A program made the position numbers and the translations under genes. From the NCBI RefSeq assembly GCF_000172975.1, contig NZ_ABTR02000001.1, forward strand, positions 782,501-846,500: a DNA stretch of 64,000 nucleotides, in the 5' to 3' direction. The notes beneath the pieces are model-generated. The model was not told the origin of the DNA, made no database searches, and worked only from the letters and a program-made list of their open reading frames with translations. Origin of the DNA: Dethiosulfovibrio peptidovorans DSM 11002. GTDB lineage: Bacteria > Synergistota > Synergistia > Synergistales > Dethiosulfovibrionaceae. Positions 269 to 26,456 of this stretch are shown piece after piece (the first letter of the stretch is position 1; each line of letters starts with the position of its first letter).

Positions 269-1036
269 ATGATCCTGGAAAACTTCTCCCTTTCGGGGAA
301 AACAGCCCTGGTAACCGGAGCCAGAACCGGAATCGGTCAGGGTATAGCGGTAGGTCTGGCCCAGGCGGGGGCGGACATAGTCGGTCTGGGACACAGCGCC
401 ATGCCGGAGACAAAAGAAGCGATCGAGGCCCTTGGCAGAAAGTTCACCCTCTACGAGATGGACCTGGTCGGATCGGATAGATCCGGACTCAACGGGATGG
501 TCGACCGCATATGGGACGAGGTCGGAGGGTTGGACGTGCTCGTCAACAACGCCGGAATAATCCGCCGGGACGACCTGCTCGATTTCGGCGAGAAGGACTG
601 GCACGACGTCATCAACATAAACCAGAACGCTCTGTTCTTCCTTTCCCAGGCCGTCGCGAGAAAAATGGTAAAAGACGGCAGAAAGGGCAAGATCGTCAAC
701 ATAGCGTCGATGCTCACCTTCCAGGGAGGCATAAGGGTACCGTCCTACACCGCCAGCAAGTCGGCGGTCGCCGGGATCACCAGGGCCATGGCCAATGAGC
801 TTTCGCCCCAGGGCATACAGGTCAACGCCATAGCTCCGGGCTACATCAGCACCAACAACACCGCGGCCCTCAGGGCCGACGAAACCAGAAACGCCGAGAT
901 ACTGGGCCGGATACCGGCTGGACGGTGGGGAACACCGGAAGACCTGGCGGGAATGGCGGTCTTTCTGGCCTCCGCCGCCTCGGACTACGTCACCGGATCG
1001 ATATTCCCGGTGGACGGAGGCTGGCTATCCCGCTGA
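269..1036 (+). CDS. kduD: 2-deoxy-D-gluconate 3-dehydrogenase / 2-dehydro-3-deoxy-gluconate 5-dehydrogenase (KduD)
   Basis: This is a 255-residue short-chain dehydrogenase. It has the nucleotide-binding TGARTGIGQG motif near the N-terminus, NNAG in mid-protein, a catalytic serine in NIAS and the YxxxK pair in YTASK. KduD converts 2,5-diketo-3-deoxygluconate to 2-keto-3-deoxygluconate with NADH in uronate/pectin breakdown. The start at 269 is chosen because an ACGAGGAG ribosome-binding site precedes it; the frame is open back to 218 but without such a site. kduI two genes downstream supports the assignment over a generic oxidoreductase. Confidence 0.88.
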   Translation: MILENFSLSGKTALVTGARTGIGQGIAVGLAQAGADIVGLGHSAMPETKEAIEALGRKFTLYEMDLVGSDRSGLNGMVDRIWDEVGGLDVLVNNAGIIRRDDLLDFGEKDWHDVININQNALFFLSQAVARKMVKDGRKGKIVNIASMLTFQGGIRVPSYTASKSAVAGITRAMANELSPQGIQVNAIAPGYISTNNTAALRADETRNAEILGRIPAGRWGTPEDLAGMAVFLASAASDYVTGSIFPVDGGWLSR

Positions 1037-1063
1037 GCACATGGACAACTAGGAGGACTTTAA

Positions 1064-1828
1064 ATGGAAAAACAGGGGATCCGGGTGCTACAAAGGCTTT
1101 TCGACATACTCTCCTACCTGTCCGAACGTAACGACTACGCCGGAATAAAAGAGATATCCGAGGGAACCGGGCTATCCAGGACCACGGTACACCGCATCCT
1201 GGGAACCTGTGAGGACAACTACGTAGTTCTGAAAGACGAAATCGGTCGCTACCGCCTGGGCCCCAGAAGTCTGGAGTGGGCTAACTCCTACCAGCTCCAG
1301 ACGGGACTGGCCAAGATCGCCAGGCCCCATCTAAAGGAACTCATCCAGGACCTGAAGGAGACGGTTCACCTCTTCATCTATGAAAAGGGAGAGGCCTTCT
1401 ACCTTGAAAAGATGCACAGCTACAGCCCTACCGGGATGGACTCCAGAATAGGCTCGAGGCTCGAACTCTACAGCACCTCGGCTGGCAAGGCCATACTGGC
1501 GGCCCTGCCGGAGGACGAGTTCGAACTCTACATGGAGACCACCGAGTTCCAGCCCAAGACGGAGAAAACCGAGGTGGACAAGGACCGGTTCAGATCGGAG
1601 ATAGCCCAGGTCAGAGCGAGAGGCTACGGGATAGACGACCAGGAAAACGACCTGGGAGTCCGATGCATAGGGTCGGCGGTAATGGATAAATCCGGATACC
1701 CCGTCGGGGCGGTCAGCCTGACCGGCCCCATATTCAGGATAACCGACGAGAAAATAGAGCCTCTGGGAAAGAGGATTCTGGCCACTGCCAGGCTCATATC
1801 CTATCAGCTGGGCTACAGCGCCAGCTGA
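1064..1828 (+). CDS. IclR-family transcriptional regulator (KdgR-like)
   Basis: The 254-residue protein has an N-terminal winged helix-turn-helix (recognition region around LSRTTVHRIL, residues 33-42) and a C-terminal IclR effector-binding domain ending near the C-terminus. An AGGAGG site lies 7 bases before the ATG. It sits between kduD and kduI, so it most likely represses this hexuronate operon in response to a ketodeoxy sugar acid, as KdgR does in other bacteria. The ligand and operator are inferred from context only. Confidence 0.85.
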   Translation: MEKQGIRVLQRLFDILSYLSERNDYAGIKEISEGTGLSRTTVHRILGTCEDNYVVLKDEIGRYRLGPRSLEWANSYQLQTGLAKIARPHLKELIQDLKETVHLFIYEKGEAFYLEKMHSYSPTGMDSRIGSRLELYSTSAGKAILAALPEDEFELYMETTEFQPKTEKTEVDKDRFRSEIAQVRARGYGIDDQENDLGVRCIGSAVMDKSGYPVGAVSLTGPIFRITDEKIEPLGKRILATARLISYQLGYSAS

Positions 1829-15251: not shown

Positions 15252-18236
15252 CTACTTACAGGGCGAGTAGCCGCAGCTGAAACAGTACTCGCAGCCGCCT
15301 ACCATCTCCATGGGAGAGCCGCACTCGGGACACTTGGGAACATCCTTTATCGTTTCTCCGCCCAGTCCGGAAAGCTTCTCCATGAGGATGGCTATACCGT
15401 CCGGGATCGAACGGACGACCCTGTCGTCGTCGCACTCGAAAAGCCAGTACTCCTTGCCGGAAATACCCCTCAAGGTGGAGATGAAATCCTCCAGCCTGCC
15501 GCCGCTGCGCAAACCTATGGAGATCACCCGGGACAGGGCCTCGGTCATGCTCTTCATCTCCGAACCGCTCTTGCCCAGAGACGCGAAGACCTCGAAGGGA
15601 TCGTCGCCGTCGTAGTTTATGGTCACGTACATGCTGCCCCAGGGGGTCACGTCCTTTATCGTCTTGCCGAAAACGATGCTGCCCGGACGCTCCTTCACCT
15701 TGGAACTGAGGTGCCGCTTCTCCGGCTCGTCGGACTTCTTGGCCTCTATGGGCTGATCCGACCGGGAACCGTCGCGATATATGGTGATACCCTTGCATCC
15801 CATGCGGTAACAGTCCTCGTAGACCCGCCTGACATCGTCCACCGTCGCCTCCGATGGCAGGTTCACCGTCTTGCTGATACCGCTGTCCACCACGGCGGCG
15901 AAGATCCCGGTAACCTCCACGTGGGAATCGGTGCCTATGTCGTAGGCGGTGACGAAACGGGGGTCGGAGATCCCGCCGGTGCGGCGGAACTCGTCTTTAT
16001 GCTCCGCCGTCATCAGACGGTGGAAATATTCCCTCGTCTCGTAGCCTCCGTCCCCGGTGGAGGACATCACCTTTCTGCTCCAGCTCCAGGCGAAATTGGG
16101 CTCTATACCGGGGCTGGCGTCCAGCAACATCGAAATGGACCCGGTCGGAGCCACGCTGAGACGACGGCTGTTTCTCATCCTGCCGGAGAAAAGGGCCTCC
16201 AGCACCTCTCGGACCAGCCCCATCCCGTCGCCTTTGTGAACCGAGGCGGCGCTCAAGAGGGCCTCCAGGGTGTTCACCAGAGTATAGGGAACCGTGTCGG
16301 TCCGCCTCATACGCTCCAGCAGCTCCCTGAAACCGCCCTCGTCCATCCGCTCGAGCCAACGATCCACCGCATCGGGCAACCCGGCCTCGCAGCGGAAGCT
16401 CTCCATGAGCTCCGACACCAGCCGATGCTCCGGGAAGGGATCCTTTCCCTCCTCAGACACTATCCTGACCGTGGCGGCCAGGGCTGCCGAGGCCATGGTT
16501 CCTCCCAAAGAACGGCAGAACCGGTTGAAGCTCTCCGAACCGTAGGAGATCCCGAGCATTATGGCGGCGTCGGCAAGCCCCATCAGGCCGAGCCCTACGG
16601 GACGTATCATCTTCGTGCGATCGGCGATCCGCTCCAACGGATAGGACGTGGCGTCTATAACCAGATCGAGATAGTAGACCGACCGAAACACCTGGTCCAC
16701 GAAGGAATCCATGTCGAAGACCGCCTCTCCGCTGGACTCGCTGGACACGAAAGCCTCCAGGTTAACCGATCCCAGGTTGCAGCTGGTGTAATTAGGCAAC
16801 GGCTGCTCGCCGCAGTTATGGACGTAAAGCCCGTTGGCGTCGAAGGCGTTTACCCCCGGCACCTGAACGTCGAAAACCGCCTCCTCCCCGCAAGGAACCA
16901 GGGAATCGAACATCGCTTTCGATATCTTTTCTTCGCCGGAATGATCGTGAAGCCTCAAAATACTTCCCTCGGAAAGCTCTCCCGCAGGAATCCAGCTCCA
17001 TTCTCCATCAACATCGACCATAACCTTATGATCGGCGGTTAGTTTTAGGGAATGTCCTTCCTTGGTCTTCAGCTCGAAGACGGGCTTTACGCCTGTGGAG
17101 AAAAAGCCCTCCGTTTCGTGACCCTTGCCGTCCACCAGCAGAGTCGTCGGCCTTCCGACCAGATCCACCGCCTGCTTGGGCCCCTCGTCGGTCATAACCC
17201 AGGTATCTCCGGTAACGCACGGGTTGGTGGACTCTATGCGCCATTGGGGGGCTTTCTTCAGTATGTTGTCCACGTTGGCCCTGTCGCCGAAGAACACGCC
17301 TGGGTCCCCTCTACGCCAGGCGTTGCGACACAGCTTATTCCACAGATCGGCGGCCTTCACCGTCTTGGCGACGGAACCGTCCGCCCTGGAGCGGAGGTGA
17401 AAATCCCCTCCCTGGGCTGCCTTGGTCAGAAGCTCATCCGAGACGGAAACGGAAATGTTGAAATAGGGCAGCTTGCCGTCCTCCACCTTGGCGTCCATGA
17501 AACGCTCCACGTCGGGATGATCGTCGTAAAGCATCCCCATCAAAGCGGCCCTGCGGCGTCCTCCCTGGACCACCACGGACCCCATGGTGTTCCAGGTCTC
17601 CATGAAGGAAACCGGACCGCTGGCCTTGCCGCCGGTGCCTCCCTTTATATCCGAGCCGAACTCCCTCAGATTGCCGAAATTGCCGCCGACCCCTCCGCCG
17701 TACTTGCTTATGACGGCGGCGTCCTTTACCGAATCGAAAATCCCCTCAATGCTGTCCTCCACGGAGATAACGAAACAGGCGAAAAGCTGCTGGCTCTCCG
17801 TCTTGCCGTCTCTCACCGCCACGTAATCCGAATAGGACATATCGTCGGGCGACCGGTAGATCAGCTCCGACATGGCCGGATCCACGGTCATACCGGCACC
17901 GGCACCGAAAAGGCAGGGAGAGTTGAACAGAAAACGACGGTTCAATATATCGGAGAAAAGATTCTTCTCTAGAACCCTGATCCAGTTCAGATCGTCCTCA
18001 CCCACGTATAAAGTCTCCACCGAGGCTATGACACGAGACACCCTTCGGGCGAACTCCTCGAAGGACGCCTCCTTTCGAACCTTCCCCTCCGCCCGGTCGT
18101 AGCGGCTCAGAAGATACCTCTGATCCAGCAGCCAGGCGGCGTTCTCCGACTGCCTCGGGATAAGGGGATTCTCCAACATGTTAACGTCGACGGACGGATC
18201 GAAACGGTCCCTGTAGCGCCTATCCTCTTTGGTCAT
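15252..18236 (-). CDS. nrdJ: Adenosylcobalamin-dependent class II ribonucleotide reductase, intein-containing
   Basis: The 994-residue precursor makes deoxyribonucleotides in the cytoplasm using B12. The large-subunit core is clear: FNSPCLFGAG near 105, the SKYGGGVGGNFGNLR region, the active-site segment NPC...GEQPLPNYTSCNLGS, and GLGLMGLADA. The C-terminus has a CPECGSP...CEYCFSCGYSPC cysteine cluster. Residues 340-474 are a mini-intein (separate entry). After splicing the mature enzyme would be about 859 residues. The intein is spliced immediately before C475, by family alignment the thiyl-radical cysteine of NPCGE. The enzyme fits the nearby cobalamin riboswitch genes. No class I or III partner genes are seen here. 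Confidence 0.93.
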   Translation of the reverse strand: MTKEDRRYRDRFDPSVDVNMLENPLIPRQSENAAWLLDQRYLLSRYDRAEGKVRKEASFEEFARRVSRVIASVETLYVGEDDLNWIRVLEKNLFSDILNRRFLFNSPCLFGAGAGMTVDPAMSELIYRSPDDMSYSDYVAVRDGKTESQQLFACFVISVEDSIEGIFDSVKDAAVISKYGGGVGGNFGNLREFGSDIKGGTGGKASGPVSFMETWNTMGSVVVQGGRRRAALMGMLYDDHPDVERFMDAKVEDGKLPYFNISVSVSDELLTKAAQGGDFHLRSRADGSVAKTVKAADLWNKLCRNAWRRGDPGVFFGDRANVDNILKKAPQWRIESTNPCVTGDTWVMTDEGPKQAVDLVGRPTTLLVDGKGHETEGFFSTGVKPVFELKTKEGHSLKLTADHKVMVDVDGEWSWIPAGELSEGSILRLHDHSGEEKISKAMFDSLVPCGEEAVFDVQVPGVNAFDANGLYVHNCGEQPLPNYTSCNLGSVNLEAFVSSESSGEAVFDMDSFVDQVFRSVYYLDLVIDATSYPLERIADRTKMIRPVGLGLMGLADAAIMLGISYGSESFNRFCRSLGGTMASAALAATVRIVSEEGKDPFPEHRLVSELMESFRCEAGLPDAVDRWLERMDEGGFRELLERMRRTDTVPYTLVNTLEALLSAASVHKGDGMGLVREVLEALFSGRMRNSRRLSVAPTGSISMLLDASPGIEPNFAWSWSRKVMSSTGDGGYETREYFHRLMTAEHKDEFRRTGGISDPRFVTAYDIGTDSHVEVTGIFAAVVDSGISKTVNLPSEATVDDVRRVYEDCYRMGCKGITIYRDGSRSDQPIEAKKSDEPEKRHLSSKVKERPGSIVFGKTIKDVTPWGSMYVTINYDGDDPFEVFASLGKSGSEMKSMTEALSRVISIGLRSGGRLEDFISTLRGISGKEYWLFECDDDRVVRSIPDGIAILMEKLSGLGGETIKDVPKCPECGSPMEMVGGCEYCFSCGYSPCK
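16815..17219 (-). other. Mini-intein inside NrdJ
   Basis: Residues 340-474 (135 aa) start with a Cys (CVTGDTWVMTDEG, splicing block A) and contain block B with the TxxH motif (LTADHKVM). Block F (AVFDVQVPG...FDANGLYVHN) ends in His-Asn before the +1 Cys of the host. No homing-endonuclease domain fits in this length. Without the insert, the flanks join as TNPC-GEQPLPNYTSCNLG, the usual class II active-site sequence. All residues required for the standard splicing reaction are visible. Confidence 0.92.
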
Positions 18237-18419: not shown

Positions 18420-18782
18420 CTACCTCCGGATCAAAGGCAGAGCTCCCAGCAACAGCAACAGAGCGCTCACAGGGGTAACTCCGACGGAACATCCGCCACC
18501 GCCGCCGGAAGAAGACTGAAGATCTCCCTCGGAGGTCGTGCCCCCTACCACGAAGACATTGCCCTTTGGAAAGGCGATATCGTTAGACTCGTTGTCGAAC
18601 GACACCAGAAAATCTCTCCACGCCGACTCCACATCTCCGGAAATCGTAACCTCCACATCGTCTACCTGTATAATCAGTCGAGAGGCTTCTGCCTTATCGG
18701 AAACGAAAGAGACGGAAAGAAGAAAAAACGCGCAGAGCAGAAACAGAACTTTAAATATTCGGGAACAATATGATTTTGACAC
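18420..18782 (-). CDS. Small secreted protein with a Synerg-CTERM-like C-terminus
   Basis: The product is 120 residues, starting with GTG at 18782 behind a GAGGAGG site. It has a signal peptide (about 1-33), a short middle domain of unknown function, and a C-terminus made of a Ser/Gly run, one Cys (GGGGGCSVG), a leucine-rich segment and a final RR. This tripartite tail resembles the sorting signal known from Synergistota proteins and is shared with two neighbouring genes. No function can be assigned to the middle part. Confidence 0.7.
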   Translation of the reverse strand: MSKSYCSRIFKVLFLLCAFFLLSVSFVSDKAEASRLIIQVDDVEVTISGDVESAWRDFLVSFDNESNDIAFPKGNVFVVGGTTSEGDLQSSSGGGGGCSVGVTPVSALLLLLGALPLIRR

Positions 18783-18872: not shown

Positions 18873-18901
18873 TTTACCTATCGGGGCACATATCGTAAAA
18901 T
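18873..18901 (+). promoter_or_regulatory. Promoter of the cobalamin-riboswitch operon
   Basis: TTTACC at 18873-18878 and TAAAAT at 18896-18901 are separated by exactly 17 bases, just upstream of the riboswitch. Confidence 0.6.
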
Positions 18902-18919
18902 CCAACTACAAAATTGAAA

Positions 18920-19085
18920 CAATCAGCGATACCCCTGGAGCAGGAAGCCGGTGAAAAACCGGCACAGCCCCGCTACGGTAAGGCCGACGAAGAGGACACT
19001 ATGCCACTGACCGAAAGGTCGGGAAGGCGTTCTCCGAGGAAGAAGCCGAGTCCGGACACTCTCCAGCCAGGTTCGAACCGTTCGT
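18920..19085 (+). ncRNA. Cobalamin riboswitch
   Basis: The leader contains the conserved core GGTG...ACCGGCACAGCCCCGCTACGGTA (18950-18980), an upstream GGAAGCCGG stem, and a downstream B12-box-like AGCCGAGTCCGGACACTCTCC (19054-19074) with a long variable arm between. These are the standard elements of the AdoCbl-sensing riboswitch. It controls the two genes downstream; a terminator-like hairpin follows. Cobalamin should switch expression off. Confidence 0.88.
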
Positions 19086-19114
19086 CTCTTCGAGGGAAGG
19101 GACGGCCATTTTTG
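19077..19114 (+). terminator. Riboswitch expression platform (terminator-like hairpin)
   Basis: CCGTTCGTCTCTTC pairs imperfectly with GGAAGGGACGG (19095-19105) and is followed by ATTTTTG. It lies just after the B12 box and before the AGGAGG of the first gene, as expected for a transcription-terminating riboswitch. Confidence 0.55.
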
Positions 19115-19130
19115 TTGAGGAGGTAAAAGT

Positions 19131-21365
19131 ATGAAAACCGTCATCCGCTCTGTATCGTCTCTACTGACGGCAATAACCCTGATCCTCCTGTCCCTCTCCC
19201 CGGGATGGGCCGACCCCATGCTTCTCTACGTCACCAGCGACTTCCACACCGGAACCTTCGGGTCGGTGGACTCCATCAAGGGAACAGTAACCGCCACGCC
19301 CAACCGGAGAGTGAACCTGAACGGCGACCCAAAGGTGTTCACCTACAGCCACGACGGCTCCCCCTACGTATGGATCGCCAACGGAAGCAGCTGGGGAACC
19401 GACCAGGACCTGGACCAAGTGTACGTATATCCCCTGGGATCCTACGACGACGCCAGCCGGATCTTCGCAGGCAACAAAGGCACCAACGTCTACGACCTGG
19501 CATCCCACAACGGCAGGGTCTACCTGGCCAACTACGCCAACCTCAGCATGTCGGTCTATCAGGGAGACGACCTCTCCAGATTAGACTCTCTATATCTGGA
19601 CTTCTCAACCATACTTTCACTTCCCAAATACGTTCCGAACTACGTAGCGGGCTACTTCAACGCCATGAAAATCGTCGACGGCTATATATACGCCCTTTTC
19701 ATGTGCTCCGACAGCCCCTCGGACTACTACGGCAACGACGGCCCGGGCGTACTCCTCAAAATAGATCCTCAGGACAGCTCGGTGCAGGCCTACGCCAAGG
19801 TCGGCAAAAACGCCAAGCACCTCAGCCACTATAACGGAGCCATCTACGTCACCTGCTTCGGCGGCTCCATGGGCTACGGCAACGTCGCCCCCACAAACGA
19901 AACCAGAATAGACAAAGTAGACATAACCTCCGACTCGGAGGAAATGCCGGTAACCACCTTCCTGAGCAAAGACGCCATAACTAAAGGGGTGGGCGAACAC
20001 TACGCCTTCGAAAACTTCATGGTGGACGACGGAGGCACAGCCTACTTCATAGCCTACCTCAACGACGGAAGCTGGCCCTCGGTCAACAAACTCTGCAAGA
20101 TCGACATGGCCAAGCCCTCCGAAATGCAGACGGTCTACACCGGCCCCTGGATGAACGCATCCGCCATGGACAGGGAGAGAGACATCATGTGGATATCCTG
20201 CCGGGGAACCGGAGAGGGAGACAGCTACATAAAGGGATTCGACCTCAAAGGCGACCAGATAGCCTCCTTCGACGGATCCGACCTGGGCAACATGCCCTAC
20301 TCCCTGGCGATCGTTCCCATCTCGGCTGGAGGAACCGCACCTGCCAAGGCCTCCATACTGTCTCCCGCCGATGGAGCGACAGTCTCGGCCGACGCCGTAA
20401 CCTTCAAATGGTACTCGCCCGACGGAAGCGACGGCAAGAAATACTCGATCCACCTCGGAACCGCCGCCGACGAGCTCTATCCCGTTCTGGTGAACTCGGC
20501 CAAAACCGAGATAGATCCCGGCACGGTAAACCTCCTCTCCGGCAAAACCTACAGCTGGAGAGTTGACGTAACGGCAAACGACGAAACCACCAAGGGCGAC
20601 GTATTCAGCTTCAAGACCGTTTCCGAAGCCTACGTAGTATCGCCCGACATGGGAGTAGCCTTCCTGGAGGACTCCATAAGCACCGACATCGTCAGCTACG
20701 ACAGGGCCGAACTGGAGCAAAAGGACATCACGATACAGGTCGCCTCGGCGGACGTTCCTCTGGCCGGATCGAACGAAACCTATTTCAGAGACGAATCTCG
20801 CAAGATAGAGATAACCCTCTCCGACGACACAGGCATCTACAGAACCCCCACCATGGAGGTATGCCTGTCGGTGGACCTGCAGACCAAGGCAGCGGACACC
20901 TACGAAGAGATCAAAGACGAAATCGCAGGAGGATCGGGAACGCTGGTCAAGGCCGTATTGACAAGAATGGCCTTCTACAAGCAAATCCAGGGAACCACCT
21001 ACGACCTGGCAGCCCTGGCTAAGAAACAGGACTCGGCCGACTACGACAAATACTTCTCCGTGGAGCTGAAAGGCGGCATCCTGTCCATCACCACGAGGAT
21101 AGTGCTCACCAACGCCGACGGAGGATCGAACGTCGTATCGACCAAGGAATCGGGAACCGAAAGATTCTTACTCGTCCACTGCGACAGCAAAACGGAGAGC
21201 GGGAAAACCGTCTTGATAGACCCGCTCTGGCTGGGCATAAAGGACACCTCCTCGGACGACCCCGGTAAAACCGGCGTATCCGGAGGAGGCTGCAACGCCG
21301 TCGGCTTCTCCGGCGGAACTCTGAGCCTTCTACTGCCCCTTCTGATACTGCTGAAGAAACGCTAG
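19131..21365 (+). CDS. B12-regulated secreted protein, propeller-like, with Synerg-CTERM tail
   Basis: The 744-residue protein has a signal peptide cut after about residue 27 (SPGWA). A repetitive domain to about 400 follows, whose sequence style (LASHNGRVYLANYANLS; HLSHYNGAIYVTCFGG) suggests a beta-propeller. A fibronectin/Ig-like domain lies at about 405-500 (ILSPADGATV...YSWRVDV), then a further domain. The tail is SGGGCNAVGFSGG, a leucine-rich segment and KKR. It is the first gene after the cobalamin riboswitch and is co-directional with a TonB receptor. It is therefore probably an envelope protein that helps capture or deliver corrinoids; this role is inferred from regulation only. I do not recognise a named family for the whole. 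Confidence 0.75.
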   Translation: MKTVIRSVSSLLTAITLILLSLSPGWADPMLLYVTSDFHTGTFGSVDSIKGTVTATPNRRVNLNGDPKVFTYSHDGSPYVWIANGSSWGTDQDLDQVYVYPLGSYDDASRIFAGNKGTNVYDLASHNGRVYLANYANLSMSVYQGDDLSRLDSLYLDFSTILSLPKYVPNYVAGYFNAMKIVDGYIYALFMCSDSPSDYYGNDGPGVLLKIDPQDSSVQAYAKVGKNAKHLSHYNGAIYVTCFGGSMGYGNVAPTNETRIDKVDITSDSEEMPVTTFLSKDAITKGVGEHYAFENFMVDDGGTAYFIAYLNDGSWPSVNKLCKIDMAKPSEMQTVYTGPWMNASAMDRERDIMWISCRGTGEGDSYIKGFDLKGDQIASFDGSDLGNMPYSLAIVPISAGGTAPAKASILSPADGATVSADAVTFKWYSPDGSDGKKYSIHLGTAADELYPVLVNSAKTEIDPGTVNLLSGKTYSWRVDVTANDETTKGDVFSFKTVSEAYVVSPDMGVAFLEDSISTDIVSYDRAELEQKDITIQVASADVPLAGSNETYFRDESRKIEITLSDDTGIYRTPTMEVCLSVDLQTKAADTYEEIKDEIAGGSGTLVKAVLTRMAFYKQIQGTTYDLAALAKKQDSADYDKYFSVELKGGILSITTRIVLTNADGGSNVVSTKESGTERFLLVHCDSKTESGKTVLIDPLWLGIKDTSSDDPGKTGVSGGGCNAVGFSGGTLSLLLPLLILLKKR

Positions 21366-21381
21366 AAAGGTACCGCTGAAA

Positions 21382-21410
21382 AAGGGAGGGCGAAGACATC
21401 GCCCTCCCTT
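21382..21410 (+). other. Intercistronic hairpin
   Basis: A perfect 12-base stem (AAGGGAGGGCGA at 21382-21393 with 21399-21410) with a 5-base loop lies between the propeller-like gene and the TonB receptor gene. No T-run follows, so it may be an mRNA-stabilising element or partial terminator that lowers receptor expression. Confidence 0.55.
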
Positions 21411-21427
21411 CACATAGGGAGGACCAC

Positions 21428-23419
21428 ATGAAAATCGGAAAGAAAACGAAAAGGGGAACCCTGGCCGCCCTGACCATAGCGACAGCCACAGCCATGACCG
21501 TCCCCTCCTGGGCCACGGAGACAACCGTATCTCCCGTCGTCGTCACAGCCTCAACCCTCATGGAGGACCAGGAAAAATCCGCCGGCTCCGTCACGGTCAT
21601 AAAACCGGAAAAGACCAAGGGAGAGTTCAAAACCCTGCCGGACCTGCTGGAACAATCGGCGGGAATACACGTCATAGAGGCCAAGGGAAGAGGAGGCTAC
21701 TCGGTAGCGTCGGTAAGGGGAAGCACCGCCGCCCAGGTAGCGGTCTACGTGGACGACATACTGGTAAACCTGGGAAGCGAATCGGCGGTGGACCTGTCGG
21801 CCATACCGGTGGAAAACGTCGAAACAGTGGAGATCTACCGGGGCTACATTCCGCCTAAATTCGGCGTAGCCGGAATGGGTGCGGTCATAAGCATAACCAC
21901 GAAAAGGCCGGAAAAAGGACAGGGATCGGTAACGGCAGGGGGGGGATCCTTCGGAGAAAGACGACTCAGCGGCAACTACGCCACCCCGGTAGGAGAGGGC
22001 AAACTCTCCATGGCATTCGAGCTGGGAACCGCCGACGGAGACTTTCCCTACACGAACCGCCCCGTTCCGGGCAACCCGTCATTGAACTACGACACCTACA
22101 GGACCAACAACGGATGGGACGACAGAAGCCTTGCCCTCCGCTGGGAAAACTCCGACTGGGACCTGGGCTACTCCTACAAAAACAGAGACAGAGACATACC
22201 AATGCCGGCCCCGGGATACGACAGCACATCGACCAAAATAGCCAGAACCGACCAGACCACCACAAGGCAGGACCTTTTTCTGGGCAAAAACCAGGGAGAC
22301 TGGGAATGGCGGATCTCCTATGGAACCCAGGACAAAACCTTCAGGGACCCCGACGGCGACCTCGACTCGATCGTACCGGGCAACCACCGCACCGAATACG
22401 ACACGGAAAGACTGAACGCCGACCTGAACGGATCGTTCCTGGCGGGAGAAAGACACTTCTTCGAATGGGCCGCCCGATGGGGACAGGAAACCCTGGACAT
22501 ATCGGAAGACGAAAACTACTTTCGGATAAACAAAGACCTGAAAAAATACCACTACAGCCAGCACTCCGCCTCTGCCACCCTGCAGGACACGATAATTCTG
22601 GACGAAATGGGAAACCTCCTACTGATACCTATGGTGAGATGGAACTACCAGGACGACGAGGACCACACATCGTGGAGCCTGGGGCTGAACTGGAAACCCG
22701 GAGACGACTGGCTGATCAAGGCGACCTACGGCAGATACAACAGAGCCCCGAACATGTACGAAAAATACGGCGACGGAGTCGGCATAGCTCCCAACACCGA
22801 CCTGGAATGGGAAGAGGGAACCCACTACGACCTGGGGATACACAAAACCTGGGAAGGGGAAACCTGGAGCGGCAGAACCGGCCTGACGGCCTTCGTCCTG
22901 GACACGGAAAACCTCATAGAGTTCATACAGCTCAACCAACGATACAGCATGTATCGCAACATAGGAAAGGGACACGTCGAAGGGCTTGAGCTGGAAAGCG
23001 CATTCGACTGGGGAAGATGGAGACTAAACCTGGCCTGCACCTGGATGGACGGAGAAAACCGCTCCGCCGGAGTCAAAAACGGCAAAAAGCTGAGAAACCG
23101 TCCGGAGCTGGCCTGGTTCGCCAGACTCACCCACGACCTTAGCGAAAAAACACAGATCTTCGGCGAATACACCTTCACCGGAGACAACTACTACAGCGAC
23201 GACGACACGGCGATCTACGACGACCTATCCATAGTCAACGCCGGAGTGAGATACAGACTGAACGACGACAGCCTTCTGGTCTTCGGGGTGGACGACGTCT
23301 TCGACGAAGGCCCGGAACGGATGATAGTTCCCGCCCCGGGCTACTACGGCAACGAGAGGCAGCCCTGGTATCCCCTTCAGGGACGGACCTTCCACCTCTC
23401 ATACTCTCTCAAATTCTGA
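21428..23419 (+). CDS. TonB-dependent outer-membrane receptor (BtuB-like)
   Basis: The protein has 663 residues: a signal peptide, a TonB box-like segment (VSPVVVTAS) right after it, a plug domain to about 170 (SVRGSTAAQVAVYVDDI; GAVISITTKRPEKG), and a beta-barrel ending in the expected aromatic residue (SLKF). It lies 62 bases after the propeller-like gene and under the same cobalamin riboswitch, so vitamin B12 or another corrinoid is the likely cargo. No BtuFCD transporter genes are in the window. Confidence 0.85.
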   Translation: MKIGKKTKRGTLAALTIATATAMTVPSWATETTVSPVVVTASTLMEDQEKSAGSVTVIKPEKTKGEFKTLPDLLEQSAGIHVIEAKGRGGYSVASVRGSTAAQVAVYVDDILVNLGSESAVDLSAIPVENVETVEIYRGYIPPKFGVAGMGAVISITTKRPEKGQGSVTAGGGSFGERRLSGNYATPVGEGKLSMAFELGTADGDFPYTNRPVPGNPSLNYDTYRTNNGWDDRSLALRWENSDWDLGYSYKNRDRDIPMPAPGYDSTSTKIARTDQTTTRQDLFLGKNQGDWEWRISYGTQDKTFRDPDGDLDSIVPGNHRTEYDTERLNADLNGSFLAGERHFFEWAARWGQETLDISEDENYFRINKDLKKYHYSQHSASATLQDTIILDEMGNLLLIPMVRWNYQDDEDHTSWSLGLNWKPGDDWLIKATYGRYNRAPNMYEKYGDGVGIAPNTDLEWEEGTHYDLGIHKTWEGETWSGRTGLTAFVLDTENLIEFIQLNQRYSMYRNIGKGHVEGLELESAFDWGRWRLNLACTWMDGENRSAGVKNGKKLRNRPELAWFARLTHDLSEKTQIFGEYTFTGDNYYSDDDTAIYDDLSIVNAGVRYRLNDDSLLVFGVDDVFDEGPERMIVPAPGYYGNERQPWYPLQGRTFHLSYSLKF

Positions 23420-23461
23420 AAAACCGACGGGGCCCTACTGAACCCCTAAAAGGGCCCCGTC
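23419..23461. terminator. Terminator shared by convergent genes
   Basis: GACGGGGCCC at 23426-23435 pairs with GGGCCCCGTC at 23452-23461. On the minus strand it is followed by GGTTTTT. It overlaps the last codons of the minus-strand YjbH-like gene and directly follows the TonB receptor. Confidence 0.7.
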
Positions 23462-25594
23462 CTCCTTCACCCTATACTCGCCTGTTATGTAATCGTACAG
23501 ACTGTGACTGCGGAGCACCTCGTCGTGGTAGGACGACCTGCCCCTCAGGGAACGGCCGTAATCGTCCAGGGCAAGATAGAGATTCCGCCTCAGCAGCTCC
23601 GGTCTAAGCTGACCCAGTAGCTGCTCAGGCGTCTTCCAGGCGCCGGGGATGCGACCGGAATAGAAACTCCAGGAAGAAAGCAACGTAAACTCCTGGTGCC
23701 AAACGGTGGAGGTATCCTCCCCCATCCAATCGCCGAACCACATATCCGCTGGCAGATCCAGCATCATCCCTATGTTGGTGTAACTTTTATCGGGAGCCTT
23801 GACATCGGTGTTGGTATAGTAAAAACCGACGGACCGATCGTCCCAATGTCTCGTCACGTCGATTCTATAGCCCTTATCGTCGTCTATGAACTTTCCATAC
23901 ATACCCTTCAGATCTAGATCGTAAACTCCGTCGTGATAACCGCCTTCAAGCCACATGGCGTTAGCCCAGTCGTTCTCGCCGTTGGCGGGATCTATACCTC
24001 CGTACAGATTCACCTTGTAATCGGCCATGGACGCAAACGAATAGGGATCTCTTTCCTTAAACATCGAAAACCTGCCACCGGCCCAGAAATCTCCCATGTA
24101 CCAACGAGCCCAGACGTTAGCTCCGAACCAGCTCTCGTCGAGCCAACCGACCTCGGCGAGGCCGAAAACCCCGTTGCCCATAGGATGAAGGTAGCTCAAG
24201 ACACCCTTCCATATCCTGGTTTCATCGTTCGCTGACGGTTCCCACCATATGTCTATGGAATTCTCCAAAGGCTGTCTTATCTGAAGGTAGACCTCCCAAC
24301 CGGAAGAGCTTCTAAGCCTGCCTATGTAATCCAGGCTCCAACGATCCATATAATCCTCGTCCAGGGTCCTGTCCAACCTGGGTTCGTAGGCCAAAGCCAC
24401 TTTAACCTCAGCAGCTCCGTTCCTGCGGCTTTTACCTGGGCCGACCATGATATTCCAAGTCTCGCTTTCCTTTGTTCCCCAAAGGGACCGGGAAACCCAA
24501 TAGAAATCGGCGGCGTTACCATCGTATCGATTCAGCTTTCCCATTCTGAGCAACCCCAACTGAGAACCGGACACATCCACTCTGGAGGTAGCCCTGCCTC
24601 TAACCCTGGGGACGGCGGAAAAAGTCTCGATATCCCAGGGCAGATTCCAGGAAGAGATAACCATAACCCTGGCCAATGCCTCGGCCTGAGAGGAAAATCC
24701 TATATTCTCGTAGGCCACCAAGACCCTCTTGTCCCCGACGAAAACCGCCACATCCCTCAAGCCGGAACCCTTAGTGCCTAGAATCTCCTGAAGCCTCTCG
24801 GCCATCGCCTGAAGATCCACTTCTTTCCAAGAAGGCACATCGCGATCGGGATCCTCCACTATAGGCTTGTCCCTCTCCTTTCCGAAAATAGGCTTGCTCA
24901 GATCGAAGGAATAATAAAACCCGTAACAGAGCTCCTCGCCTCTTTGATAACTGACAGTGGCGTTGATACCCCATGGAGACTTTAAAACCGCTCCGTAGTT
25001 GAAATCGGACTCCGCGGGATCGGGGTGTAGATACTTACCGGACACATAATCCTTCGTGTAGTCCAGAGGGCTATACTCCGCCTTGAACTCGAGCCAGTCC
25101 AGCGCCTGCCAGCTTACCCCACCGAAAAACCCCTCATAAGAATCGGTAGCATAACCCAGGGAAAAAGCCCACTTATCGAAGGTATAGGTTCCCACCGCAT
25201 AATAGGCCTTCCGTATCTCCGTACCGGTCATATCCATAGTGCCCACCGCTATATTCGGCAACCAATCGGCCTGAGAGAAAAGCAGACACTTAAGGTCAAC
25301 CGCCTTATCCTTATAGCGACCGTATCCCTCGCTTATCAGAGGCCCCGTAGCGAACCTGGTCAGACGCAGATTGTACTCCAGCCAGGGCAGGTATCCCAAT
25401 GTGACGTAATAAGACCTGTAGGGCGCAAACTCGGACCATCCAACCCATCCCTTACCGTCCCCGGCCATCTCAGCCGTGGGATACTCCCAAAGCCCGGTAA
25501 AGCCGCTGTTGGAAGGACTGACGGCAAAAACGGGGCAGACGAACAAAGATAAAGATAAAAACGCCAGGGCCAAAGACAAAAACGCCCTTTTCAT
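23435..25594 (-). CDS. YjbH-like outer-membrane exopolysaccharide protein
   Basis: The 719-residue protein starts at the ATG at 25594, which is well spaced from GGGAGGT; an earlier ATG at 25612 lies before it. It has a signal peptide, then the family-typical opening PSNSGFTGLWEYPTAEMAG and PWLEYNLRLTRF. The rest is rich in aromatic beta-strands throughout. YjbH/GfcD proteins are outer-membrane barrels linked to secretion of exopolysaccharide. Its position next to the export and chain-length genes fits this. The small partners of the E. coli yjbEFGH or gfc operons are not seen. Confidence 0.75.
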   Translation of the reverse strand: MKRAFLSLALAFLSLSLFVCPVFAVSPSNSGFTGLWEYPTAEMAGDGKGWVGWSEFAPYRSYYVTLGYLPWLEYNLRLTRFATGPLISEGYGRYKDKAVDLKCLLFSQADWLPNIAVGTMDMTGTEIRKAYYAVGTYTFDKWAFSLGYATDSYEGFFGGVSWQALDWLEFKAEYSPLDYTKDYVSGKYLHPDPAESDFNYGAVLKSPWGINATVSYQRGEELCYGFYYSFDLSKPIFGKERDKPIVEDPDRDVPSWKEVDLQAMAERLQEILGTKGSGLRDVAVFVGDKRVLVAYENIGFSSQAEALARVMVISSWNLPWDIETFSAVPRVRGRATSRVDVSGSQLGLLRMGKLNRYDGNAADFYWVSRSLWGTKESETWNIMVGPGKSRRNGAAEVKVALAYEPRLDRTLDEDYMDRWSLDYIGRLRSSSGWEVYLQIRQPLENSIDIWWEPSANDETRIWKGVLSYLHPMGNGVFGLAEVGWLDESWFGANVWARWYMGDFWAGGRFSMFKERDPYSFASMADYKVNLYGGIDPANGENDWANAMWLEGGYHDGVYDLDLKGMYGKFIDDDKGYRIDVTRHWDDRSVGFYYTNTDVKAPDKSYTNIGMMLDLPADMWFGDWMGEDTSTVWHQEFTLLSSWSFYSGRIPGAWKTPEQLLGQLRPELLRRNLYLALDDYGRSLRGRSSYHDEVLRSHSLYDYITGEYRVKEDGALLGVQ

Positions 25595-25650
25595 AGTCCA
25601 CATACCTCCCATGCCCCGAACGAAAGGGGATCAGATGGAACAAGCATATC

Positions 25651-25698: not shown

Positions 25699-26394
25699 TT
25701 ACTTCTTCAGGAAGAACAGAGGCAGACCAAGAAGCAGGGCCATAGGAGCGAAGCCCACGTTACAACCGGAGGAGGAAGAACCGGAGGAAGCAGGAGCTTC
25801 AACCTTGGCTATAACCACGTCGTTGCTCGAGAAGAACAGGTCAGGAGAGTAGATGGAAAGCTTCACAAGGTCTCCAGACTCAGCCAGACTCACAACGGGC
25901 TTACCACGCCAGTTATCCTTGCTGACAGTGTAAGTTTTCTTATCGACAGACACCTTACCGGAAGTGTGGGCTCTCAGGAAAGCCTGATAACTGGCGTTCC
26001 AATCCATTGAAAGGCCCAAAACCAGAGGATCGTCTACACTAGCGACATCAACGCTCAAGGGCAGCTTAGTAACCGGGGTAACCCTCTGACCTTCAGCAAC
26101 CTTATTGTCGTCATCGATAAAGATATCGTTCGAGGTGAAACCAGGAAGGTTGGCCAGCTCGGTGGCAAGCTTCTCAGGATCAGACTCCATATCCGCAACA
26201 ACAAGCTCCACTCCAACTGGCGCATCCTTCAAAACGTCCGTGCTGATAACCGTTACGTCCTCACTGGTAGGAGTCTTAACTCCCGGAGTAGTAGGATCGG
26301 TATGTCCAGCGTGACCGGTATCGACAGCCAACACCACGCCTGCCATGGACAGAACCACGGCTACGGCCAAAAGGCTTACAAGAAACTTCTTCAT
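25699..26394 (-). CDS. Secreted protein of unknown function with Synerg-CTERM tail
   Basis: The protein has 231 residues from the ATG at 26394, which has an ACGGAGGTG site upstream; the frame extends to 26436 without one. It has a signal peptide (cleavage after about residue 23, VVLA), a Thr/Pro-rich stretch, and a middle domain with no family I recognise. The tail is SSSSGCNVGFAP, a hydrophobic segment and KK. It has its own strong promoter and terminator, so it is a single-gene unit. It lies between the YjbH-like gene and the Wza-like gene and may be a surface protein associated with the polysaccharide. Confidence 0.72.
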   Translation of the reverse strand: MKKFLVSLLAVAVVLSMAGVVLAVDTGHAGHTDPTTPGVKTPTSEDVTVISTDVLKDAPVGVELVVADMESDPEKLATELANLPGFTSNDIFIDDDNKVAEGQRVTPVTKLPLSVDVASVDDPLVLGLSMDWNASYQAFLRAHTSGKVSVDKKTYTVSKDNWRGKPVVSLAESGDLVKLSIYSPDLFFSSNDVVIAKVEAPASSGSSSSGCNVGFAPMALLLGLPLFFLKK

Positions 26395-26456
26395 ACAACA
26401 ACACCTCCGTAAAATATGTACTTCGTATTCAGACATTAAAACGACGCGACGCTTAG

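Follow-up and report, generated by a model that had tools for sequence, protein, structure and literature searches.

A 64,000-nucleotide stretch of Dethiosulfovibrio peptidovorans DSM 11002 (hereafter the window) contains a two-gene operon, controlled by a cobalamin riboswitch, which very probably serves the uptake of vitamin B12 (corrinoids). By analogy with known systems, its first product would be an anchored beta-propeller protein that captures corrinoids at the cell surface, probably as a lid on the BtuB-like receptor encoded by the second gene. A sequence-only reading of the window had proposed a riboswitch-controlled, putative corrinoid-capture partner that is functionally like BtuG. 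This proposal is supported by a fold search, a family profile, linkage across the phylum Synergistota and the presence of the processing protease MrtS in the same genome (an assembly of 2,576,359 bases in three contigs). The case is stronger than the one first made, since BtuG itself, not a mere analogue, is nearest in fold and profile, and since the family is phylum-wide.

All elements of the operon lie on the forward strand. Analysis with cmscan identified an RF00174 aptamer at positions 18919 to 19081 (84.5 bits against a gathering threshold of 31.5; E value of 2.3e-19), the match spanning the full length of the model (1 to 189). This confirmed the cobalamin riboswitch that had been recognized upstream of the gene pair. 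Directly 3' of the aptamer is a terminator hairpin (19082 to 19105), then CCATTTTTGT (10 pairs, a 4-nt loop and a T-run; predicted fold, -14.6 kcal/mol). The hairpin and T-run are likely to be the expression platform of the riboswitch, acting as an intrinsic terminator. A consensus scan also revealed a weak sigma-70-like promoter at 18873 to 18901 (TTTACC-17-TAAAAT; 9 of 12 matches, with about one such site expected by chance). The 744-codon open reading frame starts 49 nt beyond the aptamer and is preceded by a Shine-Dalgarno sequence (GAGGAGG, 19117 to 19123).

The first gene (19131 to 21365) encodes a BtuG-like propeller protein that is 96% identical to its orthologue in a sister genome (G110). 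Inspection of the primary structure suggested an N-terminal signal peptide (MKTVIRSVSSLLTAITLILLSLSPGWA, 19131 to 19211) without a lipobox cysteine. This is followed by the beta-propeller domain (residues ~28 to 400; 19212 to 20330), which was modeled by AlphaFold2 with a pLDDT of 82.6 and a pTM of 0.87 and gave Foldseek matches to BtuG. Beyond it lie a probable Ig/FnIII-like spacer domain (20343 to 20630; a weak Pfam match with an E value of 0.17, similar stretches being present in other Synergistota proteins) and a C-terminal spacer domain (20780 to 21278) that is common to other tailed Synergistota proteins; residues ~551 to 741 match unrelated large proteins. The protein ends with a Synerg-CTERM sorting tail (residues 717 to 744; 21279 to 21362) composed of SGGGC, a hydrophobic segment and KKR. 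The tail scored 28.7 bits with TIGR04564 (cut-off, 22.5 bits), and its cysteine is Cys721 (codon 21291 to 21293). The open reading frame, the signal peptide, the TIGR04564 match and the receptor gene at 21428 to 23419 thus bear out the original description of a 744-residue secreted protein with a Synerg-CTERM tail followed by a receptor. A Pfam search returned no family for the propeller domain, and NCBIfam gave only low-scoring generic propeller names. The propeller is acidic (pI 4.6), which agrees with the negative charge reported for the binding face of BtuG2 (PMC10404256). The most conserved residues of the family alignment include N119, N227 and G244, all of which lie in its N-terminal half.

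The AlphaFold2 model of the propeller, based on an alignment of 21 homologues from Synergistota, was searched against 350,542 PDB chains with Foldseek. Ranks 1 to 15 were all BtuG1, BtuG2 or BtuG3 (E values of 8e-11 to 6e-9), most of these structures having cobalamin bound; the first non-BtuG match had an E value of 1.5e-8. To replicate this result, we modeled a deep-branching relative, L061, that is ~23% identical to the window propeller (mean pLDDT of 95.5), and BtuG again filled ranks 1 to 12. TM-scores were moderate when normalized by query length (0.63 to 0.67 for the window model and up to 0.76 for L061) and were 0.73 to 0.79 for L061 when normalized by target length. The comparison of predicted structures with BtuG thus supports the propeller-like assignment made from the sequence, and both models point to BtuG as the nearest fold.

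A profile of the 21 homologues was also compared with PDB sequences. BtuG1 was matched with E values of 1.8e-12 to 5.5e-11 (8ptd, 8ptf and 8blw; 8blw_B is the BtuG1 chain of the BtuB1G1 complex [PMC10404256]), and the next best match was at 0.48. BtuG1 remained first with larger homologue sets; kelch-type propellers also scored with the broader profiles, indicating that part of the signal reflects general propeller similarity. The larger profile, A2, was therefore set aside as a sole basis for sequence homology with BtuG. Since BtuG1 comes first in the profiles, yet kelch propellers are reached too, a common BtuG-like ancestor for the two families is likely but not proven. The single window sequence was not significant against BtuG1 (phmmer E value of 0.034) and does not reach the published BlastP homology threshold for BtuG (1e-10; PMC6143338), which only the family profile reaches (1.8e-12). 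Because it falls short of this threshold and lacks the N-terminal lipoprotein signal of BtuG, we have not filed the window protein as a BtuG, although we judge by analogy that it works like one.

The second gene (21428 to 23419) begins 62 bases downstream of the first and encodes a 663-residue BtuB-like TonB-dependent receptor with Pfam Plug and barrel domains. Its best match among all NCBIfam models was TIGR01779 ("TonB-dependent vitamin B12 receptor," TonB-B12; E value of 8e-50), at a score (169.9 bits) below the curated BtuB cut-off of 599.7 bits. The nearest solved structure in the PDB is Escherichia coli BtuB (chains with E values of 3.7e-16 to 1.1e-14); the colicin I receptor ranked below it. 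The second gene is therefore the TonB receptor it had been taken for. No second BtuB-like receptor was found in the window's genome. Between the two genes is a 12-bp hairpin without a T-run (21382 to 21410; -30 kcal/mol, z score of -5.5) that is identical in G110 and may either set the expression ratio of the two proteins or function in RNA processing.

In order to determine whether this arrangement extends beyond the window, homologues of the propeller were gathered by sequence alone, with regulation not used as a criterion. Matches were present in 77 of 188 Synergistota genomes and were strong in 59. The 87 copies in these 59 genomes with an E value below ~1e-20 formed the linkage set, and RF00174 was located in the same genomes. 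The distance downstream of a riboswitch on the same strand is at most 1 kb for 30 of the 87 copies, at most 5 kb for 56 and at most 10 kb for 62. The chance of a random gene lying within 5 kb downstream is 0.44%, and the corresponding binomial value of 2e-109 is a guide only, since related copies are not independent. A gene for a BtuB-like TonB receptor lies directly beside the propeller gene in 60 of 83 copies; of the 52 copies whose flanks are intact, 44 have such a neighbor and 47 have a receptor or a riboswitch. A survey of riboswitch-linked homologues, suggested as a check on the sequence-only reading, thus came out in its favor, and a propeller gene that neighbors a btuB-like gene and has a cobalamin riboswitch ahead of it is found in the window and phylum-wide. 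The propeller may either precede or follow the receptor behind the riboswitch, and the tree requires at least three changes between these orders, so the linkage has survived gene-order rearrangement.

Surface proteins often contain beta-propellers, and the spacer and tail domains of the window protein are common to unrelated surface proteins. A generic surface or S-layer-like protein, free of any ligand and placed under the riboswitch by chance, nevertheless is a very unlikely explanation given that cobalamin riboswitches precede 56 of 87 copies (~0.4% expected), in varying gene orders, and that BtuG came first in two independent fold searches. Some family members need not be B12 linked, since four relatives (L090, L104, L113 and L108) lack both the riboswitch and an adjacent receptor; the first three form one clade, which may have another ligand. 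A scan of genome contigs with a narrow alignment gave matches only in Synergistaceae, and no match to the propeller family was found in viral contigs. Individual Synergistota genomes can be rich in these elements, with 15 riboswitches in G145 and at least five propeller genes each in G157 and G039.

The locus of L061 reads riboswitch, receptor, propeller, Peripla_BP_2, TonB, FecCD and ABC ATPase, which by its predicted products is a complete Btu-type uptake operon (BtuF-TonB-BtuC-BtuD). In the window's genome, another cobalamin riboswitch precedes a BtuF-like gene that is followed by a permease-like start. Cobalamin riboswitches also regulate genes for cobalt transport and biosynthesis, and a CbiK-like cobaltochelatase gene of the same genome (locus L004, 523 to 1458, reverse strand) lies downstream of yet another one. 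On these grounds, the ligand imported under B12 feedback control could be a different one from cobalamin metabolism, such as a biosynthetic precursor or a cobalt chelate. We consider this quite unlikely, as the nearest folds to the propeller are B12-bound BtuG structures, the best PDB match of the receptor is BtuB, and the L061 operon has genes of the BtuF, BtuC and BtuD types. The CbiK-like protein carries an N-terminal extension resembling a signal peptide. The strongest cobalamin riboswitch of the genome (locus L001, 1501 to 1663, reverse strand) is situated ahead of an LTXXQ gene (294 to 1133, reverse strand) whose product is small, periplasmic and Spy/CpxP-like, an unusual riboswitch target.

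The gene pair had also been described as adjoining a B12-dependent reductase gene. The class II ribonucleotide reductase NrdJ was identified by a profile match at 15252 to 18236 on the reverse strand. It is divergent from the operon, and an open reading frame for a 120-residue secreted protein of unknown family (18420 to 18782, reverse strand) lies between it and the riboswitch, so there is no strict adjacency. Among 80 loci examined, the NrdJ neighborhood was kept only in G110. The adjacency is therefore incidental, and we rejected a functional link to the reductase. NrdJ contains an in-frame mini-intein of ~135 residues (340 to 475) with N- and C-terminal splicing motifs. The 120-residue protein is kept in G110; its end (GGGGGC...LIRR) is Synerg-CTERM-like and scores below the model cut-off.

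Nearly all complete homologues from Synergistales, the order to which the window belongs, have a C terminus in which a glycine-rich stretch leads to a cysteine, followed by a hydrophobic segment and then basic residues. Eight proteins of the window's genome score over the Synerg-CTERM cut-off. A second Synerg-CTERM protein in the window (245 residues; 25699 to 26436, reverse strand; 40.7 bits) adjoins a YjbH-type gene at 23435 to 25612. No mention of Synerg-CTERM was found in the literature searched. The sole CPBP protease of the genome is MrtS, the "Synerg-CTERM system glutamic-type intramembrane protease" (NF040589; 240.9 bits against a cut-off of 130; E value of 8.5e-72). Of the 55 Synergistales genomes that encode the propeller, 49 have an MrtS over the cut-off; none of the four genomes with family f11 does. 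Members of f11 (L061, L062, L070 and L073), which lie outside Synergistales, have no tail; instead, their signal peptide is followed by a cysteine in a lipobox-like context (LWGC), as would be expected for a lipoprotein, although Trp at position -2 is atypical. The anchor type changes once on the tree.

With a C-terminal cysteine tail over the TIGR04564 cut-off, no lipobox and a matching MrtS, the claim that anchoring differs from that of BtuG is supported. The sequence-only reading had left the location as surface or periplasmic. MrtX of Myxococcus, which is related to MrtS, sorts cysteine-tailed (MYXO-CTERM) proteins to the cell surface, and their lipidation has been proposed (PMC11980579). 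This favors the surface, and the periplasm appears less likely. The propeller might still bind corrinoid as a periplasmic or freely secreted scavenger and not as an anchored lid, given that both the surface site and a lipid on the tail cysteine are drawn from the MYXO-CTERM case. We regard this as unlikely: MrtS is present, and the tail-less relatives have a lipobox-like N-terminal cysteine, suggesting that these retain a membrane anchor of another kind. The genome also has two secretin genes, making an outer-membrane exit route possible.

The anatomy of the operon suggests the following scheme for anchored surface capture. At low intracellular cobalamin, the riboswitch would let transcription through the terminator so that both proteins are made. 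The signal peptide would export the propeller protein, and MrtS, by analogy with MrtX, would cut the Synerg-CTERM segment near the invariant cysteine, leaving the protein on the outer surface, probably lipid anchored. There, as in the BtuG-BtuB pair of Bacteroides (PMC10404256), the propeller may capture corrinoids with high affinity and, probably sitting as a lid on the BtuB-like receptor, pass them on to it. The route would be completed by TonB-driven import and by the BtuF-like and permease genes that lie behind another riboswitch of the genome.

Homologues of BtuG were said to occur in Bacteroidetes alone (PMC6143338), and a 2025 paper takes the same view (PMC12751083); no paper linking BtuG to Synergistota was found in the literature searched. 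We think it reasonably probable that Synergistota possess a phylum-wide, BtuB-BtuG-type system for corrinoid capture that is homologous to the Bacteroidetes system and has had its anchor replaced, the lipobox-like N-terminal cysteine of a deep branch giving way to a C-terminal cysteine, processed by MrtS, in the order of the window. Receptors for B12 that carry a lid would then be older or more mobile than thought. If so, B12 uptake by a receptor plus a surface catcher would be a general strategy, with a phylum-wide counterpart in which links to cobalamin riboswitches and receptors recur. A Synerg-CTERM protein also would gain a named ligand and partner, making the sorting system testable.

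Several known systems resemble parts of this one. XusB, a xenosiderophore-binding Bacteroides lipoprotein (PDB 9hqe), was among the fold matches of the window model (rank 49); it is a weaker match and has a siderophore ligand. We know of no link between XusB and cobalamin riboswitches. BtuK1, a B12-binding lipoprotein of Bacteroides thetaiotaomicron (PDB 9s6c), was among the matches of L061 (ranks 30 and 50) and is a weaker structural match than BtuG, from another family. Synerg-CTERM and MrtS resemble MYXO-CTERM and MrtX of Myxococcus in combining a C-terminal tail that has an invariant cysteine with a protease of the CPBP family; surface sorting has been shown for MrtX (PMC11980579) and is predicted by analogy for the related Synerg-CTERM-MrtS pair. 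The best PDB matches, with the same propeller fold, are BtuG1, BtuG2 and BtuG3 of Bacteroides (8ptd, 8bmy/8bmz, 8okv and 3dsm; BtuBG complexes 8blw, 8bmx and 8p97). Unlike these proteins, to which it is only ~10 to 14% identical in structure-based alignment, the window propeller has extra spacer domains and a C-terminal cysteine tail in place of an N-terminal lipoprotein cysteine, and its family is found in Synergistota. Like them, it is predicted to be secreted, shares a cobalamin riboswitch with a neighboring gene for a BtuB-type receptor, and has relatives in full Btu operons.
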